Part shown: piece after piece, positions 1-16,143 of the stretch | How positions within the stretch are numbered: the first letter of the stretch is position 1 | Layout of the letters: every line of letters starts with the position of its first letter | DNA from: Chthonomonadales bacterium | Lineage (GTDB): Bacteria > Armatimonadota > Chthonomonadetes > Chthonomonadales > CAJBBX01 | NCBI GenBank assembly: GCA_027459625.1 | Contig: DAIDHP010000041.1 | Coordinates: forward strand, 1 to 35,584 | Length of the DNA: 35,584 nucleotides | Direction: 5' to 3' | Translations under genes and position numbers: made by a program | The notes under the pieces: model-generated | What the model was told of the DNA's origin: nothing | The model's input: only the letters and a program-made list of their open reading frames with translations | The model's database searches: none

Positions 1-305
1 TATGAAACCGAAAAATATAAAACTATCACTTATTCTTTCTCTGTCGTCCTCCGCTCCTCTGCGTGCTCTGCGTTGTGTTTTTAAACGGCTCAACGCGGAG
101 AACGCTGAGGCGCGGAGAAACGCTGAGTATTTGTATTTTAGGATTATCGGCTTTCCGTGTTTCTTTTTTCATCATGCACAAGCTCGCAAAATACGAAAAC
201 ATTTCCTCTATATTGGTCGTTCTCTGCGTTTCTCCGCTCCTCTGCGTGCTCTGCGTTGTGCCGTTATCAGCCGTTATCTGCGTGCTCTGCGTTGTGCCTT
301 TATCA
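1..305. repeat. Dispersed CTCTGCGT-type repeats, no gene
   Basis: No credible gene is seen here. The stretch holds several variants of a purine/pyrimidine-biased repeat built on CTCTGCGTGCTCTGCGTTG. One copy at about 48-76 is followed by an imperfect inverted copy at about 90-116 (CAACGCGGAGAACGCTGAGG...), which would form a ~27-bp stem around a short loop. Further direct copies lie at about 222-258 and 278-299. Open frames here have the low-complexity composition of the repeat and are rejected as genes. Similar AACGCAGAGAACGC-type repeats occur between genes in many environmental genomes; their function is unknown. Confidence 0.7.
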
Positions 306-1747: not shown

Positions 1748-2398
1748 TCACTGGTTTGGTCGCACCGCCACCACGGGCAGTACGGAGGAGGATAGCGCGA
1801 GGGAGTGCCGCATTACATCATCGGCGAATTTCATCCCTTTCCCGAGGGTGCAACTGTCCTCGGGAATCATAATTCGCACAAAGAGGGAGTTGTTTTGCTC
1901 CGGTTGAACCATCTTATGCAGCTTGTACATCACGGTGTTGATTGCGTTGTGCGGCAAATCCGAGCGGAAATCCCCCACCCACCAGTAGATCACCCTGGTC
2001 TTTTGATTCCCCAGGGTCGCATCGAATTCACTGCACTGATACCCGTCCACATGAGTGATTATAATATCGCTCAGCGACCATCCCTGCGCCGGAAAACAGA
2101 CTTTGGGCTTGTGGAAGGAACTCGGAGTGGAGCCGGTCAGGAGCAGCAACTGTACGGCATCCCCCGAGGGCAGCGCATAGGTGCGGTCCGTCATGATTGC
2201 GTTAGGGATGATTTTGCGGGTCACGGCGCTTTCCGGTCTCTCCTCTATCATGCGCCACATGCCGATTTGCCTGGGGAAGGCGTCCACCGGCACCACGTGC
2301 GTGCTTCCGAGCTTAAGCCTGCCGAAGGCGTAACTAGCCGCGATCACCGGCAAGGTCATCATCAGGGCGATTATCGGGAGAATCTTGTCTTTTCGCAT
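1748..2398 (-). CDS. epsI: EpsI family protein (exosortase-associated, DUF3485)
   Basis: EpsI-type protein, 216 residues, with a single N-terminal membrane segment (residues ~6-25) and a periplasmic domain. The family hallmark is clear: HKPKVCFPAQGW at residues 96-107, matching the H-x-P-E-V-C-Y-P-x-x-G-W pattern of EpsI/DUF3485, plus the later 'VIYWWVGD' strand. EpsI domains are found next to, or fused to, exosortases in exopolysaccharide loci; their exact activity is not established. The start ATG overlaps the 3' end of the exosortase gene by 28 nt and is preceded by GGAAGGAAAATGGG, so the two are probably translated from one message. Downstream lies repeat DNA and then the ABC permease on the same strand. 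Confidence 0.88.
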   Translation of the reverse strand: MRKDKILPIIALMMTLPVIAASYAFGRLKLGSTHVVPVDAFPRQIGMWRMIEERPESAVTRKIIPNAIMTDRTYALPSGDAVQLLLLTGSTPSSFHKPKVCFPAQGWSLSDIIITHVDGYQCSEFDATLGNQKTRVIYWWVGDFRSDLPHNAINTVMYKLHKMVQPEQNNSLFVRIMIPEDSCTLGKGMKFADDVMRHSLALSSSVLPVVAVRPNQ

Positions 2399-3267
2399 CC
2401 CATTTTCCTTCCGAGCCAGACGAAGAGAACAAAGGCGATCACCACCACTACAACCTCGGCGGGATCGTGCGCCATCTCGAAAGCGCGATTGCCGAAAAGA
2501 TCGGTCACCGCCACCAACCCCGCTATTCTCACGATGTTCGCCACGAGGGCGATGGGAAACGCCGCAAGGGTAAATAGCGCCGTTTTGCCGATGCGCATCC
2601 GGTAAAAATAGGCGTAAAGCAGAGCGAAGGCGATGAACGCCTCGGTTTTTTGAAAGCCGCTGCAGACATTCGCCACCTCAAGCGTATGCCCCGGAATGCT
2701 GATGATATTCCCCATTTGGATCACCGGTATCCCCACAATCTGCGCAAGCAAAACCGCGCCGTTTGTGCTTTGCATCTGCAGCCATTGGTTGAGAGGATCC
2801 ACCAATTGCGAGGGAAGCCCCCCGGCGAATAGGAGGAACCAGATCGGGAACCGGATCACCCTCCAAAGGTCGGAGCCGTGCGTTATCAACACCGTCCCCG
2901 CTATCACCGGGATAAGGGTCCACTCCCCCAGGCATTTGATACGAAGGTGCCATGACACAGCTTCAATCAGCAATCCAACGCCTATAAGGACTAATCCCAC
3001 GGGCTTTGGGCTTTTTCGCGCTTCGGCGATGGAATCCCTTAGGAGCCATAGGAGAGCGATTGAGATGGGAAAGATGAAAACCCCCTGCGCCCGGCTATCG
3101 TCGGTGAACCAGAGTTCCGCCGATTCGCGAATGACGGGGAGATAGAGGATCACCAGACTTAAAACGAATAGTTTGGAAGCCCAATTCCACCTTCCAATGG
3201 CGCGCAACACTTCCCGCAAGGTAACCCTGGTATCGTTCTCTTCATTTTTTCGCACCACATTTTCCAT
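2371..3267 (-). CDS. xrt: Exosortase (PEP-CTERM sorting transpeptidase)
   Basis: Integral membrane cysteine protease/transpeptidase of the exosortase/archaeosortase family, expected to process PEP-CTERM proteins at the cytoplasmic membrane. About 298 residues with eight or so hydrophobic segments. The three catalytic residues are present in the right order: Cys202 in EVANVCSGF (family EVAxxCSGx), Arg247 in ANIVRI and His267 in AHDPAE. I chose the ATG at 3267 because AGGAACC lies just upstream; the longer frame to 3321 adds a non-conserved tail. Substrates are at hand in this window: the two PEP-CTERM proteins at 11606 and 13007. It is followed by overlapping epsI. Its exosortase subtype cannot be assigned without profile searches. 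Confidence 0.92.
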   Translation of the reverse strand: MENVVRKNEENDTRVTLREVLRAIGRWNWASKLFVLSLVILYLPVIRESAELWFTDDSRAQGVFIFPISIALLWLLRDSIAEARKSPKPVGLVLIGVGLLIEAVSWHLRIKCLGEWTLIPVIAGTVLITHGSDLWRVIRFPIWFLLFAGGLPSQLVDPLNQWLQMQSTNGAVLLAQIVGIPVIQMGNIISIPGHTLEVANVCSGFQKTEAFIAFALLYAYFYRMRIGKTALFTLAAFPIALVANIVRIAGLVAVTDLFGNRAFEMAHDPAEVVVVVIAFVLFVWLGRKMGCEKTRFSR

Positions 3268-3305
3268 AAAGGTTCCTATAAAACCGACGGATGACCGGCG
3301 ATGGG

Positions 3306-3383
3306 CCCCCAACGATCTCATCTAACGCAAAGTCGCAATGTCGCAAAGACGCCAAGAAAGGAGACTGGACCCCCAACGATCTC
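3306..3383. repeat. 14-bp direct repeat flanking an AAAGTCGCAA-type insert
   Basis: CCCCCAACGATCTC occurs at 3306-3319 and again at 3370-3383. The DNA between them carries the phrase CGCAAAGTCGCAATGTCGC followed by AAAGACGCCAAGAAAGG, which resembles common dispersed intergenic repeats. This could be the footprint of a small insertion with its target duplication, or coincidence. Confidence 0.4.
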
Positions 3384-3858: not shown

Positions 3859-4913
3859 TTTTCCCGTCTCCCGTCTTTGGTCCCCCGTCGCATTTCCCCG
3901 CTCTCCCGTCCATAATACTCCCTGTACCATTCCACAAATCGCTGAATACCGACTTCCATTGGGGTGGACGGGCAAAATCCCGTGTCGCGAATCAGGTCCT
4001 CCACATCCGCGCAGGTTTCCGGAACATCCCCGGGCTGCATGGGGAGCATGTTGCAATTCGCCCGCTCTCCCAGAGCCTGTTCGAGCGCCTCAATGAAGCG
4101 CAGCAGTTCCACGGGGTGATTATTACCGATATTGTATACTCGATACGGCGCCGAACTGGAGGCGGGGTCGGGGTTATCTCCGGACCATAGCGGATCGCCT
4201 GCGGGGATTCGGTACAGTGTCCGGACGATCCCCTCCACGATATCGTCCACATAGGTGAAATCCCTTTTCATTTTTCCATGGTTGTACACATCAATCGGCT
4301 TGCCATCCAGAATCGCTTTCGTAAAAAGAAAGAGAGCCATATCGGGGCGGCCCCAAGGCCCGTAGACGGTGAAAAATCTAAGCCCCGTGGTTGGCAGTCG
4401 GAAGAGATGGCTGTAGGTGTGCGCCATCAGTTCATTCGCTTTTTTGGAGGCGGCGTAGAGGCTCAGGGGGTGATCGACGTTATCGTGTGTGGAAAACGGC
4501 GCGGAGGTGTTGGCTCCGTATACGGAGCTGGAGGAGGCGTACACCAGATGCCGGACATCGCACCGCCTGCACCCCTCCAAAATGTTGCCGAACCCGACGA
4601 TATTGCTGTTGATGTACGCTTGCGGGTTTTGCAGGGAGTAACGCACCCCCGCTTGAGCGGCAAGGTTCACCACGTATTCGGGGCGGATATCGGCGAACAA
4701 CGCCTCCACTCCGTCGGTTTCGGCGATATCCCATCTGTAAAACCGAAAATCAGGTTCGCTTTTCAGCATGCAGAGCCGCGACTCTTTGAGGGACACATCG
4801 TAATAATCGTTCAGATTATCGACTCCGATGACCTCCTCCCCTAGGTCCAGAAGTCTCTTGCACAGATGATATCCGATGAACCCCGCCGCGCCCGTCACCA
4901 TTACCCTCGCCAC
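3837..4913 (-). CDS. NAD-dependent epimerase, UDP-glucuronate 4-epimerase-like
   Basis: Short-chain dehydrogenase-type nucleotide-sugar epimerase, about 358 residues, likely making UDP-galacturonate for the polysaccharide. N-terminal Rossmann motif GAAGFIG (residues 8-14), '[13 protein letters not shown]' typical of CapI/GAE enzymes, the 'AAQAGVRYS' segment, catalytic serine region YASSSSVYG (125-133) and Y153-x-x-x-K157 in YAASKKANE. '[15 protein letters not shown]' is also characteristic of the UDP-glucuronate 4-epimerase group. Start: GTG at 4913 with AAGGAGAC six to seven bases upstream; the longer frame to 5036 has no such site. The last ~22 residues, rich in Arg/Gly/Glu after 'YREYYG', look like read-through into decayed DNA and overlap the GNAT remnant. 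First gene of the minus-strand block, divergent from the sugar transferase. Confidence 0.9.
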
Positions 4914-11357: not shown

Positions 11358-11387
11358 TTGATTACGGATTTCCCTTTGTGATATACT
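11358..11387 (+). promoter_or_regulatory. Sigma-70-like promoter before PEP-CTERM gene 1
   Basis: TTGATT at 11358-11363 and TATACT at 11382-11387 with an 18-nt spacer. It lies 95 nt before the duplicated leader, and the equivalent place before the second PEP-CTERM gene also has a -10-like TATAAT, two bases out of register. Confidence 0.45.
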
Positions 11388-11481: not shown

Positions 11482-11605
11482 AAATCAGGATAGGATTACT
11501 CGAGTTCAATATCCTGTGTCCCGAATTCGGCTTAAGCGGTCTCCATGCCGGATTGTCCATGGGGCGAAGTAGCACTCGATCACATGTTGAACAAAGGAGA
11601 CGAAA
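11482..11605 (+). promoter_or_regulatory. Duplicated 5' leader, copy 1
   Basis: These 124 nt up to the start codon are identical, without a gap, to 12883-13006 before the second PEP-CTERM gene (constant offset 1401), and the identity continues 15 nt into the coding region. Possible structure: CAGGATA (11486-11492) pairs with TATCCTG (11510-11516); CCGAATTCGG (11521-11530) is a perfect palindrome; CCATG pairs with CATGG just after. It ends in the ribosome site AAAGGAG. It may be a cis-acting leader, a regulator target, or simply recently duplicated DNA. Confidence 0.8.
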
Positions 11606-12454
11606 ATGCTGAAAAAGGTTTTAATGGCAGGGGTGTTGTGCGCCATGGGGTTTGTCGCTCTTCTCCCTGTTGCCAATGCGCAATTACCCTATGTTTACAG
11701 CGCCGCCGGTGTATTGGGCTTGAACAATACCGGCGTTGAGGCGCAAGGCAGCACGGATACCAATTATACTTTCTCCAACAGTCTGGGATTTAGCGGATTT
11801 ACTAATTTTACTAATCCTTACGTGACCGAGCTTGTCAACGGTTCAGGTAATACCATATTTCCGGGCAACGCATGGTTGCCTGATAATAACACTTCCAAAT
11901 GGATATCGCCTCAAGCAAACTACTCCCCTGCCGGTTATGATCCATCCGGTTTTTATCTTTTTCAGACAACGTTTAACAATCCAAATTTTAGCAATAGTTA
12001 CAACATTACCGGTAACTGGGCCACGGATAACCTAGGCGTCGGCATCTATTTGAACGGACAACTGGTTTCAGGCACTAGCATGTTGCCAGCTTCTTATAAC
12101 AATCAATCTTTAGCTCCAACCAACGACAGCTTGCCCTCTTCCAGTGATATTCAATCGTGGTTTGACAGTTTGACATCGAGCCAGCAACTGAACTATTTCC
12201 AAACACCAACAAGTTTCAGCATTCCCTCAACAACCGGATTCATAAAGGGTGGGAATACTCTCGATTTCCTAGTATACAATGCAATCGGCTCATCCTACAA
12301 TCCTGCGGGGTTAAATGTGAACTTCGCCGTTACTTCGAATAGCGCATTGCCCGTACCCGAGCCCATTTTCTTCCAGCTTGGCACTCTGCTGCTATGCGCC
12401 GGCGGGCTGGCTCTGTTCCGCAGAGCGCATGCTGGGAAAGGCGTTCCCGCCTGA
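11606..12454 (+). CDS. PEP-CTERM sorting-domain surface protein 1
   Basis: Secreted protein of 282 residues and likely exosortase substrate. Signal peptide MLKKVLMAGVLCAMGFVALL with cleavage near 'ANA-Q' (~26). The mature part is rich in Asn, Ser, Thr, Tyr and Gly, typical of extracellular beta-sandwich proteins, with a conserved core 'ITGNWATDN.GVGIYLNG' shared with its neighbour. The C-terminus has the full sorting signal: VPEP, then a hydrophobic stretch beginning FFQLGTLLLCAGG, then a basic FRRAH tail. The 'FFQLG' and the Cys inside the membrane stretch are shared with the second protein and differ from the usual 'STLALLGLG'. AAAGGAG precedes the ATG. No enzymatic domain is recognised; a role in biofilm or matrix is inferred from the family. 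Confidence 0.92.
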   Translation: MLKKVLMAGVLCAMGFVALLPVANAQLPYVYSAAGVLGLNNTGVEAQGSTDTNYTFSNSLGFSGFTNFTNPYVTELVNGSGNTIFPGNAWLPDNNTSKWISPQANYSPAGYDPSGFYLFQTTFNNPNFSNSYNITGNWATDNLGVGIYLNGQLVSGTSMLPASYNNQSLAPTNDSLPSSSDIQSWFDSLTSSQQLNYFQTPTSFSIPSTTGFIKGGNTLDFLVYNAIGSSYNPAGLNVNFAVTSNSALPVPEPIFFQLGTLLLCAGGLALFRRAHAGKGVPA

Positions 12455-12468
12455 ACGTCTTTTTACGG

Positions 12469-12509
12469 ATCGCCGCTCTCTTCGTGCATAGGGGGCGGCG
12501 ATTTTTTTT
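12469..12509 (+). terminator. Rho-independent terminator after PEP-CTERM gene 1
   Basis: ATCGCCGC (12469-12476) and GCGGCGAT (12495-12502) form a perfect 8-bp stem with a run of eight T directly after it, 15 nt past the stop codon. It makes the second PEP-CTERM gene a separate transcription unit. Confidence 0.85.
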
Positions 12510-12767
12510 CTCCCGCTTGGCTCCTTGTCGCTTATTCCGCCCACCCGGCACGGATACAAATATCCCTTTTAATGATTTCGGATATTTTTTTCAGAAACGC
12601 TGCACTAAACCGGTTTTGATTGTATTTAATGGGTGATATGTCATTCGCAAGCTCAATCCTTCGGGAACCCGCCTAGGTGCGTTCGGGAGCGGGATTTGAG
12701 ACATTTCGAGTGTACGGGAGGAGGTGGTACGAATATTTTTTTCTTCCGTTCGGTGACTTGTCGTTTT

Positions 12768-12790
12768 TGGCATGGATTTTGCAGTATAAT
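12768..12790 (+). promoter_or_regulatory. Sigma-54-like -24/-12 site (with overlapping TATAAT) before PEP-CTERM gene 2
   Basis: TGGCATGGATTTTGCA at 12768-12783 matches the sigma-54 pattern TGGCAYG-N4-TTGCA, with the hallmark GG-N10-GC spacing. Immediately downstream TATAAT (12785-12790) could instead be a sigma-70 -10 box, though no good -35 lies 16-18 nt upstream of it. PEP-CTERM genes are under RpoN and PrsK/PrsR control in some bacteria, which makes the match plausible; no such regulators are in this window. Confidence 0.45.
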
Positions 12791-12802
12791 ATATTCGTAG
12801 CA

Positions 12803-12828
12803 TTCGCCTGTTGTTTTCGTCAGGCGAA
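12803..12828 (+). other. Perfect hairpin near the expected transcript start
   Basis: TTCGCCTG (12803-12810) pairs with CAGGCGAA (12821-12828) around a 10-nt loop, followed by CCTTTTAATAG. It would sit at the very 5' end of the PEP-CTERM 2 transcript, as a protective stem, an attenuator-like hairpin or an operator. No counterpart of the same sequence exists before gene 1. Confidence 0.55.
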
Positions 12829-12882
12829 CCTTTTAATAGTTCGGAGGCGCCGAAGAGCATGCGTCGGCGTCAGAGGGTTTTC

Positions 12883-13006
12883 AAATCAGGATAGGATTAC
12901 TCGAGTTCAATATCCTGTGTCCCGAATTCGGCTTAAGCGGTCTCCATGCCGGATTGTCCATGGGGCGAAGTAGCACTCGATCACATGTTGAACAAAGGAG
13001 ACGAAA
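12883..13006 (+). promoter_or_regulatory. Duplicated 5' leader, copy 2
   Basis: Identical to 11482-11605 over its whole length; the sequences upstream of 12883 and 11482 differ, so the boundary is sharp. It carries the same CAGGATA/TATCCTG stem, the CCGAATTCGG palindrome and the AAAGGAG ribosome site. Confidence 0.8.
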
Positions 13007-13813
13007 ATGCTGAAAAAGGTTCTAATGGCCGGAGCGTTGTGCGCGCTCGCTCTCGCCGCCGTGGTGCATCCCGCAATGGCGACAAACACAAACGTCGCAG
13101 GGATGCTAGGGCTGAATAATACAGGAGAGACGTATAGTAACAGTTCATACACACCTGATATACAAGGAAATCAGGATAAAAACTATACGCTACAAACCTT
13201 GGATACATCCTCTTGGACTTGGCAGCTAGTAACCAATCCATATGTCACAGAGCTAAGCCAAGGTCAATTTCCTAGTACATATTGGACTGCATCAGTAAAT
13301 GATGCTCAATGGATTTCACCGCAATCAAACTATACACAAAATAATTCTGATGCGGCTGGTTTCTATTTGTATACCACTCAATTCACACCTACTGCTGGAA
13401 CATATCAAATCACGGGTAATTGGGCGACTGACAATTATGGAGTTGGCGTATACCTTGATGGCGCTTTGATTACCAACAGTGCTATGAATGGATCATACAC
13501 AACTTTGTCAATTAAAGATTTAATTTCCAGTGATTTTACAAAAATTCAAAGTTGGGCGGATGGTCAAAAGCCGCAAGATTTTAGTAAAACGTTCACATAT
13601 TCGTTTGATGCTTCTGGCAATAACCCTCATGATTTGGCATTTTTAGTTTATAACGCATCTGGTTCCGGTGGTAATCCCACAGGCGTTATTGCTAATTTTA
13701 GCGCACAGCCCATCCCCGAGCCGGAGTTCTTCCAGCTCGGCACTCTGCTGGCTTGCGGCGGCTTTCTGGGGCTTTTCCGTAAAATGCGAAAGGCGTCCAA
13801 CAGCTTAGCTTAA
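13007..13813 (+). CDS. PEP-CTERM sorting-domain surface protein 2
   Basis: Secreted protein of 268 residues, paralogous to the preceding gene. Signal peptide MLKKVLMAGALCALALAAVV with cleavage near 'AMA-T'. Core similar to protein 1 ('NPYVTELSQG', 'WISPQSNYTQN', 'ITGNWATDNYGVGVYLDG') and the C-terminal signal IPEPEFFQLGTLLACGGFLGLFRK. The first codons and the sorting signal are GC-rich and closely match gene 1 at DNA level, whereas the interior is AT-rich and diverged, a mosaic pattern. Expected to be exported, processed by the exosortase and held in or released into the exopolysaccharide matrix; the function of the mature part is unknown. Confidence 0.92.
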   Translation: MLKKVLMAGALCALALAAVVHPAMATNTNVAGMLGLNNTGETYSNSSYTPDIQGNQDKNYTLQTLDTSSWTWQLVTNPYVTELSQGQFPSTYWTASVNDAQWISPQSNYTQNNSDAAGFYLYTTQFTPTAGTYQITGNWATDNYGVGVYLDGALITNSAMNGSYTTLSIKDLISSDFTKIQSWADGQKPQDFSKTFTYSFDASGNNPHDLAFLVYNASGSGGNPTGVIANFSAQPIPEPEFFQLGTLLACGGFLGLFRKMRKASNSLA

Positions 13814-15828: not shown

Positions 15829-16143
15829 CGCGGCGAATAAATTCGCGCCGGTTGATTTCCGATATGAATGAATCTAACACCACGTTTACGCACGGCGAAT
15901 AAATTCGCGCCTGACAAATACGCGAAATCCACCTCCGTGGATTTCATCAACGCACACCGCCACAACCCGCGTTATGCACGGCGAATAAATTCGCGATTAA
16001 CAAATACGCAAAATCCACATCCGTGGATTAACATCAACGCACACCGCCACAACCCGCATTAAGCACGGCGAATAAATTCGCGATTAACAAATACGCAAAA
16101 TCCACCTCCGTGGATTTCATCAACGCACACCGCCACAACCCGC
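15829..16143. repeat. Tandem array of ~87-bp palindromic units
   Basis: Three tandem units begin with CACGGCGAATAAATTCGCG at 15891, 15977 and 16064 (unit lengths 86, 87 and ~80), preceded by a partial copy from 15829. Each unit holds GCGAAT-AA-ATTCGC (stem with a 2-nt gap) and AAATCCAC-CTCC-GTGGATTT, a perfect 8-bp hairpin in units 1 and 3; unit 2 has CATCC and loses the last pairs. All end in a CACCGCCACAACCCGC phrase. There are no unique spacers of CRISPR size. Open frames on both strands across the array repeat with it and are not genes. Confidence 0.85.

Follow-up and report, generated by a model that had tools for sequence, protein, structure and literature searches.

A sigma-54 promoter has been described for PEP-CTERM genes, with a reported restriction to Proteobacteria among the species discussed (Haft et al. 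2006; PMC1569441). Bacterial paralogues such as RF1/RF2 are known to undergo partial gene conversion (PMC4530459), and long-lasting concerted evolution has been reported in prokaryotes (PMC6053082). Here, we analyzed a stretch of 35,584 nucleotides (hereafter the window; positions 1 to 35,584 of contig DAIDHP010000041.1, assembly GCA_027459625.1) from a Chthonomonadales bacterium of the phylum Armatimonadota, in which two tandem PEP-CTERM genes share a 139-bp identical tract over their leaders and first codons. We attribute this identity, with a probability of roughly 0.8, to recent gene conversion, or an equivalent ectopic recombination, between old neighboring paralogues.

The two genes are open reading frames on the forward strand, gene 1 at 11606–12454 (282 amino acids, C-terminus PEPIFFQLGTLLLCAGGLALFRR) and gene 2 at 13007–13813 (268 amino acids, C-terminus PEPEFFQLGTLLACGGFLGLFRK). 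Both C-termini carry a Pro-Glu-Pro motif followed by a hydrophobic stretch and then by arginines. Neither gene has a match in Pfam or NCBIfam, and no curated model fits them directly; they are assigned as sorting substrates by context, since the same window encodes an exosortase (2371–3321, minus strand; PF09721, E = 4e-50) and an EpsI-like protein (1748–2398, minus strand). The two proteins are 45% identical by BLASTP. A third family member is located on contig 25 (L037:4391-5158), and this gene and gene 1 are the only close paralogues of gene 2 in the genome. The coding identity of the contig 25 gene to gene 1 is 51%, a distance much like that of gene 2. When GTDB genomes were searched with an alignment of the three paralogues, a single distant relative was recovered, too far removed for its leader to be compared. 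A candidate intrinsic terminator follows gene 1 (12467–12512, forward strand; a pattern match with a 15-pair stem and then a T run), and each gene is therefore probably transcribed on its own.

A preliminary description of this DNA had reported a perfect 139-bp duplication between strongly differing flanks, and direct comparison bears out both statements. Positions 11482–11620 match positions 12883–13021 of the same strand at 139/139 bases. Each copy consists of 124 nt of noncoding leader, including the ribosome site (AAAGGAGA), and codons 1–5 of its gene; the second copy is placed relative to gene 2 exactly as the first is to gene 1, so that both are in register with the start codon. Immediately upstream, matches fall to 17/32 over the nearest 32 bases and to 56/200 over 200 bases, and downstream to 36/60, the identity ending sharply on either side. 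The coding regions of genes 1 and 2 are 54% identical. An identity of 139 bases cannot be due to chance. The copies form direct repeats spaced 1401 bp apart, and against a background of 800 kb of the same genome, fetched by region, exact repeats of this length are rare: the only other one of at least 100 bp is a local repeat of 119 bp with a spacing of 240 bp.

Repeats of other kinds were also observed. A tandem array at 15886–16143 of the window is composed of 86-bp units that are about 92–94% identical and contain GGCGAATAAATTCGCG palindromes, and diverged dispersed intergenic repeats (CCGGTCACTTCGTTCCCGG... and CTCCGCG.../NAENAE-type) are common to the window (1–300 and 1463–1741) and contig 25 (L037:3550-6000). 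On contig 19, a noncoding direct repeat of 133 bp (L108:1471-1603 and 4237-4369; 97% identical) flanks a transposase-like ORF within a PEP-CTERM cluster. It was considered as a parallel to the tract and was rejected, being noncoding and arranged around that ORF rather than placed at a gene start. A mobile-element origin of the 139-bp tract was rejected as well, because the tract exists in only two copies, each in the same register relative to its start codon.

The age of the gene pair can be compared with that of the tract through synonymous sites. Outside the tract, four-fold degenerate sites of genes 1 and 2 match at 8 of 46 positions (the first five and last 45 codons being left out), which is the chance level. 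Such saturation indicates that the gene pair is old and that the tract is far younger. Inside the tract, codons 2–5, which lie within the signal peptide, are identical, and the next conserved codons past it already differ synonymously (TTA/CTA, GCA/GCC, and GGG/GGA). The locus thus shows two marks of gene conversion, a sharp-edged identity within diverged paralogues and a synonymous divergence far greater outside than inside. A second region of raised synonymous identity is found at the 3' ends, where positions 12340–12420 of gene 1 and 13699–13779 of gene 2 (both forward strand) are 77% identical. Here four-fold sites match at 9/14, compared with 8/46 elsewhere, and a similar split of the sites (9/13 vs. 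10/49) gives P = 0.0015 (Fisher's exact test). The same ends show no raised identity to the contig 25 gene, with 0/12 and 4/14 four-fold sites matching. This 3' excess, which rests on 14 sites, suggests that a similar but older exchange may have taken place at the other end of the genes.

If the leader were a regulatory element shared by many PEP-CTERM genes, as the preliminary description had envisaged, further copies would be expected. The leader is found at the two genes and nowhere else in their own genome. It is absent from 290 further genomes of the phylum, where only 22-base matches were obtained, as expected by chance, and no further copy was recovered from 60 relatives, phages, plasmids, and viral contigs; a single distinct leader sequence is represented across the collections searched. 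Furthermore, the leaders of comparable PEP-CTERM paralogues diverge freely within the same genome. The leader of the contig 25 paralogue, which begins AAATCAGGA, aligns globally with the tract at the level of shuffled sequences; a faint similarity between the two is borderline (P = 0.054), and homology was rejected. For two PEP-CTERM genes arranged in tandem on contig 19, coding identity is 80% and 58/69 four-fold sites are identical, whereas the leaders are at the shuffled level. What the preliminary description had named as evidence against a shared leader RNA is thus observed in large part. Selection on leaders strong enough to keep the tract invariant should recur in other paralogues, and it does so neither on contig 25 nor on contig 19, which argues for copying.

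Gene conversion is thus favored by the sharp-edged 139/139 identity, the saturated synonymous sites outside it, the occurrence of the leader nowhere else, and the free divergence of other PEP-CTERM leaders. Of the two readings offered in the preliminary description, conversion or strong selection on a leader RNA, the former is favored by the sharp edges and the four-fold sites, and the latter is left with neither another copy nor a folding signal. In the proposed event, the leader and ribosome site of one gene, together with its first five codons, would have overwritten those of its neighbor, in one direction or the other, through RecA-type recombination across short residual homology, such as that of the first codons (MLKKVLMAG), which resemble each other in the two genes. 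Judged from sequence, the exchange was most likely non-reciprocal, that is, conversion rather than crossover-type integration. Such an event is ordinary in kind, and we infer it from one genome, no relative having an orthologous pair in which the leaders before the exchange could be seen.

Strong purifying selection, acting on a leader RNA common to both genes (e.g., a riboswitch, a thermosensor, or a small-RNA target), could also keep two leaders identical. The tract does run from the leader to codon 5, and its span over the leader, ribosome site, and start is a point against conversion, as function could matter there; the borderline similarity of the contig 25 leader leans the same way. The 5' end of the leader can form a stable hairpin, CAGGATA...TATCCTG (11486–11516, and also 12887–12917; forward strand), with z = −2.24 when taken alone, and DNA palindromes are slightly over-represented in the tract (6-mers, 5 vs. 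1.8 expected, P = 0.03; 8-mers, P = 0.01). Among three pairings named beforehand, this hairpin is the one that finds support, with a pair probability of about 0.97 in the isolated leader that drops to about 0.15 in the longer gene 1 leader; for the self-folding of CCGAATTCGG and for CCATG/CATGG, the letters are there but the predicted pairing probability is below 0.1. However, neither the full leader (z = −0.86) nor its 124 noncoding nucleotides (z = 0.02) gain any advantage in folding over shuffled sequence, and Rfam, searched with the leader at curated and permissive thresholds, returned nothing relevant. Neither the lack of another copy in the genome or phylum nor the diverged leader of the contig 25 paralogue agrees with selection of this kind. 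Known structured leaders also allow changes in loops and spacers, and 124 invariant noncoding bases next to saturated coding sequence would be an extreme case. We therefore consider such selection an unlikely cause of the identity. It is somewhat harder still to accept a regulatory RNA module specific to this lineage, spread between two differently promoted surface-protein genes and co-regulating their translation, or a recombination switch between the two proteins formed by the paired leaders.

A related proposal is that the copying was itself functional, bringing the same translation control under another promoter, or that the repeats constitute a switch in which deletion of the 1401-bp unit would place gene 2 behind the promoter of gene 1. 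Genes 1 and 2 differ in promoter and a terminator lies in between, and perfect 139-bp direct repeats at this spacing are a plausible substrate for RecA. Nevertheless, any recent conversion tract would look alike, the rearranged version was not seen, and there is neither a sign of a recombinase nor any such repeat at the starts of the other PEP-CTERM genes examined, which leaves this proposal very improbable. An assembly artefact, in which repeat collapse gave rise to the identity of the copies or to their order, might be suspected in a draft genome of 114 contigs that is 96.55% complete, all the more as 139 bp is close to common k-mer lengths. Yet both copies are within one contig and have unique flanks. 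De Bruijn assembly merges only identical k-mers, so that real differences normally survive, and an incorrectly resolved repeat would have its partners exchanged, not its copies made identical. An artefact is accordingly hardly credible. A further point against the preferred reading, recent gene conversion, is that identical leaders might still bring some benefit, given that the two genes differ in promoter. None of the observations made here calls for a regulatory effect of the leader.

The element common to many PEP-CTERM genes in this genome is a predicted sigma-54 promoter and not the 139-bp leader. Upstream of gene 2, TTGGCATGGATTTTGCAGT (12767–12785, forward strand) is a perfect pattern match with a position weight matrix (PWM) score of 27.3, and among 1.6 million positions scanned there is one site this good. 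The pattern TGGCAYG-N4-WTGCA (i.e., TTGGCATG-N4-(A/T)TGCA) has 29 matches genome-wide (the site at 12767–12785 and 28 others, L075–L103), compared with one for the reversed control. About half of the 29 are followed by a PEP-CTERM reading frame, and others lie ahead of, e.g., a sugar transferase, a response regulator, and some exopolysaccharide-type genes. The pattern is also enriched in a same-genus relative (21 vs. 0) and in several other relatives. The contig 25 gene has a weaker site (PWM score 13.1), and its promoter region matches that of gene 2 with a score of 42, which was reached by 0 of 500 shuffles. No sigma-54 site was found upstream of gene 1, where the best PWM score, 0.4, is at background level; a possible sigma-70-type promoter (11358–11387, forward strand; TTGATT-18-TATACT with TG before the second hexamer) comes from a consensus scan and is no better than shuffles. 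The best match to the PrsR family (TIGR02915) is a sigma-54 activator of the NtrC/AtoC type on contig 19 (L110:3860-5071; 403 amino acids), with 386 bits, below the cut-off of 502.6; it scores higher against the AtoC and NtrC models than against PrsR. It matches positions 1–374 of the 445 in the PrsR model and may be without the C-terminal DNA-binding part. Beside this activator lie a sigma-54 promoter and a histidine kinase of the GAF/PAS type. For the regulation of these genes, the sigma-54 promoter is a better lead than the shared leader.

The genomic setting was compared with one genome of the same genus, in which synteny extends from 14063 rightward at 85–92% identity. To the left of 14063, that genome carries a different exopolysaccharide locus, including a glycosyltransferase and a chain-length determinant, and has no PEP-CTERM pair; the replacement of this part by an unrelated locus resembles a serotype island. 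The gene pair thus occupies the border of a variable exopolysaccharide island, which is replaced in the one close relative. The findings suggest that, in surface-protein genes of such an island, the ends are exchanged and the middle parts diverge. More generally, perfect conservation of noncoding DNA between paralogues is not in itself a sign of a regulatory RNA, and comparison with other paralogous pairs in the same genome can separate recent conversion from selection.

Among known systems, the riboswitches and leaders of Rfam are resembled in that the leader here directly precedes the ribosome site; the locus differs from them in that it matches no family, does not stand out in folding energy, and has no second occurrence. 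The regulon described with PrsK/PrsR (Haft et al. 2006; PMC1569441) is resembled in other respects: PEP-CTERM genes occur singly, have long upstream regions, and possess a −24(GG)/−12(GC) sigma-54 site, and an exosortase and EpsI are encoded in the window. The 139-bp leader is no part of that regulon. The likeness is to RF1/RF2 conversion (PMC4530459) and to concerted evolution in prokaryotes (PMC6053082) with regard to the tract itself, a short stretch of near-identity between otherwise diverged paralogues of one genome, the difference from conversion of the RF1/RF2 type being that the tract here is made up mostly of noncoding leader, followed by five codons.
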